Positions 902 to 41,499 of a stretch of 64,000 bases of DNA are shown here, piece by piece. Where the stretch lies: assembly GCF_000003815.2 (NCBI RefSeq), contig NC_049984.1, positions 22,814,073 to 22,878,072 of the forward strand. Reading direction: 5' to 3'. This stretch comes from Branchiostoma floridae. Taxonomy: Eukaryota > Chordata > Leptocardii > Amphioxiformes > Branchiostomatidae. Each line of letters starts with the position of its first letter. Position 1 is the first letter of the stretch. A program made the translations under genes and the position numbers. The notes under the pieces were generated by a model, which saw nothing but the letters and a program-made list of their open reading frames with translations, ran no database searches and had not been told where the DNA came from.

Positions 902-1239
902 CTGGAAGTGGAAATAAAAAAGAAAATTTTATAAAATGTTACATCATATTGTCCCTGTAACCAAGGAGGTTTAACCTCCTAGCTGTATAAATTGGTAGCA
1001 GTTTCATACTTGAACTCCAGGTTCCAATAAGTTGGTAACTGGGAGACCCTAGTACCTGGTTCTAATCCAGGGAAGGGCATCTCGGTTGGGGCTGCACCCA
1101 TGTGTCAAAAGGTATAAAATGGAGGTCCTGTATTCGAGGATGTGCCCTGGACCTTGCAACTTAGATGTAGGTATGTACTATTGTAACAGTGGTGTTCAAG
1201 GACTGCTAAACCGAAAACGCCTAACGGCTTAAGCCTTTA

Positions 1240-1304
1240 TGGCCGAACGGTTTGCACGTTCGATTTGTGATCCGGCTGCCCGGGTTTGGCGCGGGTTCGA
1301 ATCC
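1240..1304 (+). promoter_or_regulatory. tRNA-type Pol III A box and B box inside the 5' LTR
   Basis: TGGCCGAACGG (1240-1250) fits the A-box consensus TRGCNNARYGG at every position. GGTTCGAATCC (1294-1304) fits the B-box consensus. Their 54-bp spacing is that of a type II (Leu/Ser) tRNA. The T stem can pair, but the acceptor stem does not, so this is a tRNA-derived promoter and not a working tRNA gene. Confidence 0.75.
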
Positions 1305-1520
1305 CGGGAGTCGGGGTGTTGTTTCTTTCTGTTCTTACTCGCCCCTCTGGTTGTTTCACTGGTTCCCATGCCGACCCTGTGAGTAACAGGCTAGTATGTG
1401 CCACACAGGGATGTCGAACTCGGAGATTCGAGGACGAATCTTGAAAAGAAAAGGGGGAGTAGTGTAACAGTGGTGTTCAAGGACTGCTAAACCGAAGACG
1501 CCTAACGGCTTAAGCCTTTA

Positions 1521-1584
1521 TGGCCGAACGGTTTGCACGTTCGATTTGTGATCCGGCTGCCCGGTTTGGCGCGGGTTCGAATCC
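1521..1584 (+). promoter_or_regulatory. same Pol III boxes in the 3' LTR
   Basis: A box at 1521-1531 and B box at 1574-1584, both identical to the 5' copy. One G has been lost between them, giving 53-bp spacing. The 3' copy could drive Pol III transcription out of the element toward BLOC1S4. Confidence 0.7.
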
Positions 1585-1785
1585 CGGGAGTCGGGGTGTT
1601 GTTTCTTTCTGTTCTTACTCGCCCCTCTGGTTGTTTCACTATTACTGTACTATGTAACGTATTCCAATGTGAATTTATCTAATACTACTTATAGTAAATT
1701 CACAGTCAGTCCTTCAACTTCAAGAGAAGAACTTCAGAGATTACGTTACACATCAAACCCAAATAACAAAAACTCAAATATGGCA

Positions 1786-26509: not shown

Positions 26510-29500
26510 ATGGCTTCAAGTTTTGCCCCTCCCACCCCGAAACCCGAACTTTTGGTTCTCGATGTCGGTAAGCAAAATGTTTGTAGATTATCTTGCTTGT
26601 ACATTCTAGAGTGACTTTGTAACAAAGATTACGTGAAGTATGAAGGTTGACAATTGTTCTGGCACACACACACACATGTGCACACATACAAACAAACAAA
26701 CACACACACACACACACACACACACTTATATAACTTATACATATGCACACAGACCTCGACCAAACATGTACACTAACACTTACACACACACACACACACA
26801 CATGCACACACACACACAATACTCAAATACATGCATAACAATTTACGCACACAGGTACAATGTGTTCACACAGACACATGCACAAACATATATACGCAAA
26901 TATGCTCACGGACATACACGCTCAACATACACACACACACACATGCACACACACACAAACATACAAACATACAATTGCACAGTCACATAACGTTACATGT
27001 GCATTTACACACATTCTGATTTGATTAATTTTGAACAGCTATGATGTTGACAGTAACAGTAAGTGAAATTCATGCTTTACAATTGTCACATTATGATTAT
27101 CAATATTCATATCACTTGTTTTCAGACTGGACGTTATGGCCCTTCCACACTGACATGGACGTTTCACCCCCCTTCAAGAAAGACAGGTAAAATTCCAATC
27201 AATCATCTTTGCTGCTAATGTTAGCACTTTTTTATCTTCTTCAATGTAGCACCCATTGAATATTAACGTTGATCACCGATTGTCACATACACTGATACTG
27301 TTAGCGACTATTGTATTTTCTCAAAGTACACACTTTTGAACTTTTCAAAAAGTTGCTGCAAGTTGGATTGAAACTGACATAGCTGTATACTTGTATCTTG
27401 ATTATCGGTCATATGATCACACATGTTCGCACATGTTTACACACGGCGGGGTTATACCGCCCCTTTCGGAGTGACAGACCCTTTCGCTGGCTGATTACAA
27501 AACAGGGATGCGCCAGGTCTCCCGTCCGGGTGAATGATGTAATTCACCATGTGTCTGATACGAGACAAAGGTTTGCCAGGCCTCCATCCGGGTGATTTGA
27601 AGTGAATCACCAACTCCAGACGGAAGGATTTGCACCATTGCACACCGCACCATCGCACGTGTGGGGTTCTTAAATGTGCCTGGGGTGTGGCTCTCCCCAG
27701 TCACGGGACCTCCATTTAACGTCCTATCCGAGGGACGGCCCTAGCTGAAGCTAGGTACTCATTTTCACCTGAGTAAAGTGAGGAAAGCCGTGTAAAGTGC
27801 CTTTCCCTAGGGCACAAGATCGGTGACACGCGGCCGGATTCGAACCCGACACCTCCCAGTCCCGAGGCAAACACACTGCCAGTGCACCACGCGGTAGTAC
27901 TTTGTATCTTGATTGTACGCAAGTCAAGCACTATAGTGTGCCCTGAGTTTAAGTTTTTGTTTGTACCTACAGCAGTGGTGAAGTGAGGGACAGCAGAGGG
28001 AAGACCATCCAACCCTTTCCTGATGTACCCAGGATACTGGACTGGCTGAAGGGGAATGGGTACACTCTGGCCTTAGCTTCCAGGTAAATGTAATCAGAAA
28101 AACACACTTACAATAGGCCGATCCTCCCTGTCCATCACAATTAGCATTTCAACCAATGGGAGGTTGGCAATCATAGGTATAACCAATGAGAGAGTGGCTA
28201 CACGTCCATCATGTATTTGCATGTTATGCTTTTGTTTTGTATTTCTACATTTTGACGGAGGTGAGTGGAGCTATGGGATCGGTCTATTACATATGGAAAA
28301 AAAAAAACATTTTTAGATGGAGTTTTTGTGGTAGTTTAAAGTCGGTATCAGGAAACTGTATGGTGTGTAGTCAGAATAGAAATGTTGAGCAAGACAAATA
28401 CGTATCAGAATAAGGCCCCGTTCATGATACAAAAAACGAAACGGTTCTATCGGTTACTATCGGTTAGGCCAGCTGAAACGGATAAGTTTTGTCATCATGG
28501 ACGGTCCGAAACGGATCTGAAGCGATAGGAAACGGTTTGTTCGGAACCTCCTCGCGAGGTAGTATTGAAACGGTTTCTTCCTTATCCGGAATTGCGAATT
28601 TGTATCATGAACGCAAAAGCGGCGCGATCCGTTTTACATCCAGGCATGTGCGTTTATATTTGGTGGCGCCACGGGGAAAAAGTACAATTTTTGATCTGTC
28701 ATTCGCGTGTTTCGGCCGCGTTTTCAATCGTAAAATTCGTTTTTATTATCGGGCCGCCTCCTGGTAGACTGAGCAGCCAGCAGTCCTGATATCGCAGGTT
28801 AATGTGTCAGGAGATCCAGTGGAAATATCATAGCATGGCATATATCGGGACCACAATGTTTTCAGAGCCATTTCCAGGGTCAAAACAGAACTCAGCTTCG
28901 AATTCAGTAAGACATTGGTAAGATTTCGATCAGAGACCAATAATCTGACAAAGAAATACAAGTTTCGGCAAGATCACAACAACCTCAGGGGTCAGAGGTC
29001 GCATTACCATTCATTACCATGCCTTTTCAAGGAACTGAAACGGTTTGCAAGTTTGCATCGTGAACGCAAAATACAAACCGTTTCCTGTCGTTTGCTGTCG
29101 GATTTCCAGGCCTAACCGATAGAACCGTTTCATTTTTTGTATCATGAACGGGGCCTAATTGTAAATGGTGAACATTCACATTTTTTGATCCCGCACAAAA
29201 CAAGCATGTGTGCTGTTGTGTATTGTGTTATCAGTGTGCTTCATGTCGGGATATATAGGAACATGTCATACTGCAATTCTATAACAATCTGCCAGGAGGC
29301 ACAACCACACGCATCTAAAAGGTCGTACTACTTTTTCCGCCTCCCAAATGAGACTGGACACTTTTTTCAAGCATCCAGACTGTACTGCTCTTTCCGGCAA
29401 CCTTTGTTATATTTCAGCCATACATAGTATGGTGAAATATATTGTATTCGTAATGTTTCTTTCTTCTTTCTCCTGTCAAATCTTCAAAGTGATTCATCTC

Positions 29501-41087: not shown

Positions 41088-41340
41088 CTGTCTGGATTTT
41101 ATCAAGCCTGACTCTCACCGCAAAGAAATGCTCTAACACCCCTTACCCTTGCCCCGGACGAGCCCAACTATCAATTGATGATCACCAAGTAATCATCCGT
41201 TCTATCTCCAAACCGTCCCTGCTAAAATAAAGGAGATGAAGAAGATGAAGAAAAAGATAGGAACATGACAAAATCGCCGCTATTGATGTACGAATGATAT
41301 TCAAATCTAGCCAAAAACTGAATTAGCCAAAAACATTGTT

Positions 41341-41423
41341 GTCAGAAGTGGGATTCGAACCCACGCCTGGAGAACCAGACTGCGACCTGAACGCAGCGCC
41401 TTAGACCGCTCGGCCATCCTGAC
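41341..41423 (-). tRNA. tRNA-Leu, anticodon CAG
   Basis: On the minus strand, GTCAGGA pairs with TTCTGAC as a 7-bp acceptor stem. The anticodon arm is CTGCG-TTCAGGT-CGCAG (anticodon CAG). A long variable arm of the type II class is present, and the T arm has TTCGAAT. Length 83 bp, no intron, no encoded CCA. A GTTTTT run about 8 nt beyond the 3' end is a fitting Pol III terminator. It looks fully functional. Confidence 0.96.
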
Positions 41424-41499
41424 AATGTAGAAGTGCATTGGCAGGACGTTACGGTTTTAGAAGAACCATTGTTGACTCATCATCGTCATCATTGATCCT

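Follow-up and report, generated by a model that had tools for sequence, protein, structure and literature searches.

A young TRIM family of Branchiostoma floridae with a predicted Pol III-type promoter in its LTRs and copies of its tRNA-Glu primer at LTR ends in its relatives

Helenus elements (also TRIMp3) are non-autonomous TRIMs of 311-1263 bp with two LTRs and a tRNA-like segment within the LTR, and their animal members show 4-bp duplications (Kojima 2024, PMC10886601). The paper itself states that Pol III use by Helenus is without experimental validation (PMC10886601). The Cassandra TRIMs of plants also carry a Pol III promoter module within their LTRs, which there is derived from 5S rRNA (PMC10886601). 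PbTRIM of the harvester ant is likewise an animal TRIM, and the accessible text of its description does not mention a tRNA-like LTR segment (PMC3532108). In Ty1/Ty3, the first plus-strand product reaches into the primer tRNA, dead-end strong-stop DNA builds up and the sequence of the primer is not passed on (PMC5371799). In HIV, m1A58 halts plus-strand synthesis, and on an unmodified tRNA copying runs through to the 5' end (PMC13191261).

The window analysed here is the whole stretch of 64,000 nucleotides of Branchiostoma floridae contig NC_049984.1. An element of 457 bp was located at positions 1182-1638, with two LTRs flanking an internal region of 104 bp. Its features, and a tRNA gene of the same window used below for comparison, are as follows:

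1178-1181, + strand: 5' target-site duplication (TSD) CTAT, called by the rule under which 34 of 40 loci had exact 4-bp TSDs
1182-1358, + strand: 5' LTR, 177 bp, TG...CA, from repeat alignment, with 82 LTR copies aligned
1240-1250, + strand: A box TGGCCGAACGG of the 5' LTR, from the sequence; nine specified positions as in the old-family majority, two NN positions changed
1294-1304, + strand: B box GGTTCGAATCC of the 5' LTR, exact; all 11 columns as in the old-family majority
1359-1462, + strand: internal region, 104 bp, too short for the enzymes needed; 504 first-look genome candidates, 40 scored
1360-1374, + strand: primer-binding site (PBS), imperfectly complementary to the 3' end of tRNA-Glu(CUC); captured tRNA-Glu copies share its register
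1443-1462, + strand: polypurine tract (PPT) GAAAAGAAAAGGGGGAGTAG, abutting the 3' LTR; AAAAGGGGGAGTAG stands before the second LTR in 40 of 40 printed loci
1463-1638, + strand: 3' LTR, 176 bp, from repeat alignment
1521-1531, + strand: A box of the 3' LTR, from the sequence
1574-1584, + strand: B box GGTTCGAATCC of the 3' LTR, exact
1639-1642, + strand: 3' target-site duplication CTAT, from the sequence and the genomic TSD test
41338-41424, - strand: tRNA-Leu(CAG) gene, from ARAGORN and Rfam scan

The direct repeats at 1182-1358 and 1463-1638 aligned end to end with an E value of about 5e-87. The preliminary description of this DNA had counted only two differing sites between the LTRs, and these were found to be one substitution and one 1-bp indel. 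The LTR starts with TGTAACAG and ends with TTTCA. The internal region begins with C-TGGTTCCCATGCCG, so that the TGG of the PBS begins one base 3' of the 5' LTR, and it ends with the PPT. All the TRIM hallmarks previously claimed within the 457 bp (TG...CA LTRs, TGG-starting PBS, PPT and 4-bp TSD) were confirmed. The anatomy, with a PPT adjoining the 3' LTR and a 4-bp duplication, shows integrase-type insertion, and the element appears dependent on the enzymes of other elements. The window copy is an ordinary, young and complete copy without tRNA capture.

By description rather than by consensus sequences, the family fits Helenus (PMC10886601). Its 457 bp, two LTRs and 104-bp internal region agree with the TRIM size and structure given there, and the LTR contains a tRNA-like segment with the box motifs TRGCY/YGG and GGTTC, which in the window LTR are TGGCC...CGG at 1240-1250 and GGTTC at 1294 (PMC10886601, section 3.5). 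The PBS complementary to the 3' end of a tRNA (reported to be tRNA-Glu in some bivalve Helenus), the PPT, the 4-bp TSD of animal members, the solo LTRs and the tandem arrays reported for zebrafish LTR-11_DR were also shared (PMC10886601). The captured full-length primer tRNA described below is unlike Helenus in that it has no counterpart in the available text of that description (PMC10886601). The analogy with Cassandra drawn previously was right as to a Pol III promoter module within TRIM LTRs, although the segment here is tRNA-like and no 5S family match was found in Rfam scans of the window or the element; the exact known counterpart, which had gone unnamed, is Helenus (PMC10886601). A Pol III-type promoter in a TRIM LTR is thus not a new idea and the element belongs to a known kind. 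Branchiostoma is absent from Table 1 of the Helenus paper, and the words 'Branchiostoma', 'amphioxus' and 'lancelet' are absent from its main text (PMC10886601). Branchiostoma and Helenus were found together in no paper of the freely accessible literature searched. The amphioxus is a probable further animal host for a small group with a Pol III-type promoter inside the LTR, here with boxes conserved across two families.

The assembly searched comprised 513,431,437 bp in 431 contigs, of which contigs C1-C19 measured 17-35 Mb; GC is about 0.42. A search with the whole element, in which 40 of 1099 first-look candidates were scored, gave at least 46 genomic matches, 45 of them at ≥96% identity. 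The young-family sample consisted of 39 genomic stretches and the window copy (40 loci). Exact 4-bp TSDs, taken as identity of the bases before the first LTR and after the last, were present at 34 of the 40 loci compared to 15 of 1560 mispaired flanks, with the six loci without a matching TSD kept in the denominator. The genomic LTR pairs with short duplications that had been proposed as a check were therefore present as dispersed copies. Five loci (L012, L013, L028, L035 and L039) were LTR-internal-LTR-internal-LTR arrays with matching outer 4-bp TSDs in all five, which is what array formation in the course of one insertion, or after it, would produce. Both LTRs could be aligned in full at all but one (L019, dropped) of the 35 two-LTR loci, and 12 of the remaining 34 had identical LTR pairs, with a mean of 0.97 substitutions per pair. 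These observations support a dispersed and recently active young family, and the 12 identical pairs bear out the recent activity claimed in the preliminary description.

A search with the internal region alone (40 scored of 504 candidates) gave 30 loci. At six of them (L085, L089, L091, L093, L094 and L097), at least one LTR was only 70-89% like that of the window or matched in part, while their internal regions were 97-98% identical. Since divergent LTRs flank such similar internal regions, one internal module is common to at least three LTR classes. By eye, L085 and L089 each had two different LTR classes and no 4-bp duplication, L093 had no 4-bp duplication directly at its ends, and duplications were seen in L094 (GTTC), L097 (CAAC) and L079 (TAAG).

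An older sister family was searched with a 77% relative adjoining copy L017 as the query; 40 of 747 candidates were scored and 30 loci were fetched, L048 being the query place. Single LTRs predominated in these 30 loci. A full LTR-internal-LTR element was found at L053, with an internal region 89% identical to that of the window, and L056 retained a PPT fragment. Two sister LTRs in the same direction were found at L061 and inverted neighbours at L062 and L071. Start and end were both usable in 18 of 33 sister LTR-like matches, and five of these 18 had an exact 4-bp TSD compared to 3 of 306 mispaired. Solo-LTR forms exist, then, in the older sister family. According to the preliminary description, the TRIM reading would fail if copies were only simple tandem repeats without target duplications or if solo LTRs were lacking; dispersed copies and the solo LTRs of the sister family were found.

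A LINE-mobilised SINE derived from tRNA, in dimeric or tandem form, would share the Pol III boxes and the short length of the element, but hardly deserves credence in view of the 4-bp TSDs at 34 of 40 loci, the TG...CA ends, the correctly placed PBS and PPT, the absence of an A-rich tail, the single-LTR forms with a 4-bp TSD and the tRNA-Glu primer fossils described below. The 3' tail, the variable-length TSD and the lack of LTR, PBS and PPT that define tRNA-derived SINEs were not found in the element.

The consensus of the A box is TRGYNNARNGG, and the A box of the window element at 1240-1250 matches it. For comparison of the two families, 28 of the 33 sister LTRs were long enough to be aligned, and their majority state was compared with the window LTR over 159 columns, 30 of which differed. 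None of the 19 specified A and B box positions differed, compared to 30 of 140 other columns (Fisher P 0.025), a figure which represents one contrast between two families and not a rate estimate. Two of the 30 changed columns were the unspecified NN of the A box. This conservation supports a predicted tRNA-type Pol III promoter in each LTR, as had been claimed. The segment itself is not a recognised tRNA: ARAGORN recognised none in the LTR segment of the window, the Rfam tRNA model had no match in the element at E values up to 5, and the only hits of Infernal on the element were two tmRNA fragments, scoring 12.5 and 13 bits. The tRNA covariance model that had been proposed for the LTR segment thus had no match. 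Comparison of the LTR segment with the tRNA-Leu gene of the window gave a local score of 41, with none of 500 shuffles above 31, the best resemblance tested. The earlier wording of perfect A and B boxes at type II tRNA spacing was accordingly overstated, although the B box is exact in both LTRs and the A box fits its consensus.

Neither AATAAA nor ATTAAA was present in the window copy, and no TTTT was found on its sense strand. Absence of TTTT was weakly unusual for one LTR plus internal unit (P 0.085 by dinucleotide and 0.35 by mononucleotide shuffling) and had P values of 0.002 and 0.09, respectively, for the whole element; 23 of 91 GC-matched windows were also without TTTT. In the wider sample, 20 of 82 young LTRs contained TTTT. 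Of the 28 old LTRs, 24, such as L053 and L062, had it just before or at the A box, and it was rare elsewhere, no other bin exceeding 4 of 28. The idea that the transcribed strand strictly avoids TTTT was therefore rejected. The TTTT run at the A box (window 1236-1240) is interrupted in most young LTRs. TTTT at the A box could stop Pol III there; it may instead be harmless, or be a terminator in the 3' LTR. By eye, the B box was lost from one LTR in the relatives L079 and L097, and GGTTCGA was kept in most printed LTRs of two other LTR classes, with the 5' LTR of L097 lacking it.

These data were also weighed against an ordinary TRIM transcribed by Pol II, with the tRNA-like segment as a passenger from an old SINE insertion. 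Such an element would agree with the absence of a tRNA by Rfam or ARAGORN and with the frequent TTTT beside the A box in the older family, and young copies are too alike for constraint to be read from them. It is nevertheless unlikely, given that the specified box positions are unchanged against 30 of 140 other LTR columns (in the single two-family contrast), that the window copy has no polyadenylation signal, and that most printed LTRs of two other classes kept GGTTCGA by eye, with the same exception in L097.

The PBS matched tRNA-Glu(CUC) at 12 of 18 bases in the window type and at 14 of 18 in the commonest type. Of 45 internal regions, 43 gave matches of 12-15 of 18, and the remaining two had a shift of the 5' boundary. 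The PBS was imperfect over the 18 bases in all 43 comparable regions, as if it were not renewed from the tRNA. In three of the 30 loci from the search with the internal region (L091, L092 and L101), ARAGORN found an antisense tRNA-Glu(CUC) after the LTR in place of the usual PBS. The Rfam tRNA model scored 61.8 bits for L092, 44.2 bits for L101 and 26.8 bits for L091, where the gathering score of 29 was not reached. By eye, outer 4-bp duplications were retained in L092 (ATAC) and L101 (ATTT). In the old family, a decayed tRNA scoring 29.2 bits, Glu-like by eye, came after the LTR at L062.

A targeted junction search used the 30 bp at the end of the L092 LTR, followed by its tRNA, as the query, and 31 of the 40 places scored out of 395 candidates ran from LTR into tRNA. 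The inspected set comprised 20 of these 31 places together with L091, L092 and L101, so that 20 of 23 loci came from the targeted search. In 22 of the 23, a recognised LTR was followed by one nucleotide (two in L121), TGG and the tRNA copy; no LTR was recognised in L125. CCA was present in all 23 tRNA copies. The copies ended at query positions 56-77, mostly near full length, with the mature 5' end at 76; because selection favoured long matches from LTR to antisense tRNA, the orientation and end-point distribution give no rates. After the tRNA, AG and another LTR start were found in L111, L114 and L091, like a two-LTR junction keeping the tRNA, while L092, L112, L116, L119, L127 and L110 resumed within the LTR (L110 with the last 28 bp only). 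L101 resumed with the normal PBS, and the element part after the tRNA was inverted in L118. End points, LTR classes and downstream joins all vary, which speaks for numerous separate events.

The LTR was intact from its first base in 19 of the 23 loci, nine of which led into a long element part and ten of which did not. Among the ten simple cases, five (L109, L110, L117, L123 and L126) ended with CA and 4 bp equal to the 5' flank, compared to 2 of 90 mispaired; no such end was found in L108, L115, L121, L122 and L124. The LTR-tRNA loci without a further long element part look like integrated plus-strand strong-stop DNAs. They resemble the Ty1/Ty3 product in its extension into the primer tRNA, the PBS that is not renewed and the dead ends, and are unlike it in that the Ty1/Ty3 DNA is in virus-like particles, whereas here an LTR with a near-full-length tRNA is apparently fixed in the genome (PMC5371799).

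That these junctions arose by insertion beside tRNA-Glu genes and not by copying of the primer is very improbable. Some retrotransposons do target tRNA genes according to the accessible text of PMC5006619, and a query made of LTR and antisense tRNA can find only that arrangement, but a single nucleotide (two in L121) separates the LTR end from the tRNA copy, which is in exact PBS register, and CCA is never missing in the 23. Six of the nine other scored places, by comparison, start at query 35, the expected start of a tRNA gene lacking CCA, with two at 32 and one at 28. Furthermore, the copies reach the mature 5' end or stop close to it, and the downstream sequence varies by locus. The fossils in relatives show that tRNA-Glu is the primer, identifying directly what is normally predicted from a short PBS.

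The base opposite A58 was unchanged in all 23 tRNA copies, and misincorporation there as a mark of m1A58 was found in none of them. This is compatible with an unmethylated primer or with error-free bypass, and the lack of errors would fit a primer without m1A58. It is rather likely that the genome is an archive of failed reverse transcription, in which reverse transcriptase repeatedly copies the whole primer tRNA-Glu and the resulting LTR-tRNA DNA either integrates or becomes part of new elements, so that antisense copies of the tRNA-Glu gene arise. If true, this would be a route for an LTR element to seed tRNA genes and acquire tRNA sequence. No prior report of full-length primer-tRNA capture was evident in the freely accessible literature covered, which included the available text of PMC5371799, PMC7472051 and PMC13191261. 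The captured primer tRNA is more surprising than the TRIM itself. The copies preserve a plus-strand strong-stop intermediate with the entire tRNA, otherwise known from biochemistry, and make both a possible escape of tRNA-Glu from the A58 methylation stop and the way in which dead-end cDNAs enter the genome testable in a living animal.

A total of 135 integrase (rve) places were found in the genome, more than 30 of them in open frames above 1300 aa, which suggests young autonomous LTR families as possible partners. The same PPT was not found near the integrase in the 3' pieces of eight of the 135 places, of which that of L128 ends within the open frame and the other seven extend only 250-600 bp past it; seven places other than that on C169 were covered by 801-bp 3' pieces, all without the PPT. 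An integrase place on C169, about 2 kb from copy L100, was rejected as the partner. The intervening, partly N sequence held no common end and L100 has its own GTTA duplication, so that the nearness looks accidental.

As a whole, the best explanation is a Pol III-transcribed, tRNA-Glu-primed TRIM with partner-supplied proteins, with a probability of roughly 0.85. Pol III transcription would begin in the 5' LTR, about 10-18 bp 5' of its A box, and would cross the 104-bp internal region and enter the 3' LTR, giving a short terminally redundant RNA. This RNA would be packaged by proteins of a separate autonomous LTR element, probably Gypsy, and tRNA-Glu would prime its reverse transcription. Judging from the fossils, plus-strand synthesis would sometimes continue past the usual stop at about 18 nt and copy the whole or nearly whole tRNA-Glu, and the LTR-tRNA DNA product may then be integrated or switch template. 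The explanation is favoured by the TSDs, dispersed two-LTR copies, arrays, conserved boxes and absence of AATAAA, ATTAAA and TTTT from the window copy, and by the agreement with Helenus as published (PMC10886601). Priming by tRNA-Glu is favoured by the PBS and by the CCA-bearing LTR-tRNA-Glu junctions in PBS register, and integration of LTR-tRNA DNA by the CA and 4-bp TSD in five of ten simple cases against 2 of 90 mispaired. Against the explanation stand the tRNA model without a match, the TTTT in LTRs, the B-box loss in L079 and L097 and the absence of a PPT-sharing partner in eight of 135 places.

Other repeats were observed in the window. An imperfect long inverted repeat with arms of 22 and 18 bp lies just 3' of the element at 1793-1973 and is possibly a foldback or MITE. 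A tRNA-derived SINE-like repeat with a perfect B box is located at about 27640-27900 on the - strand, and the stretch at about 960-1170, just 5' of the element, resembles it by eye.
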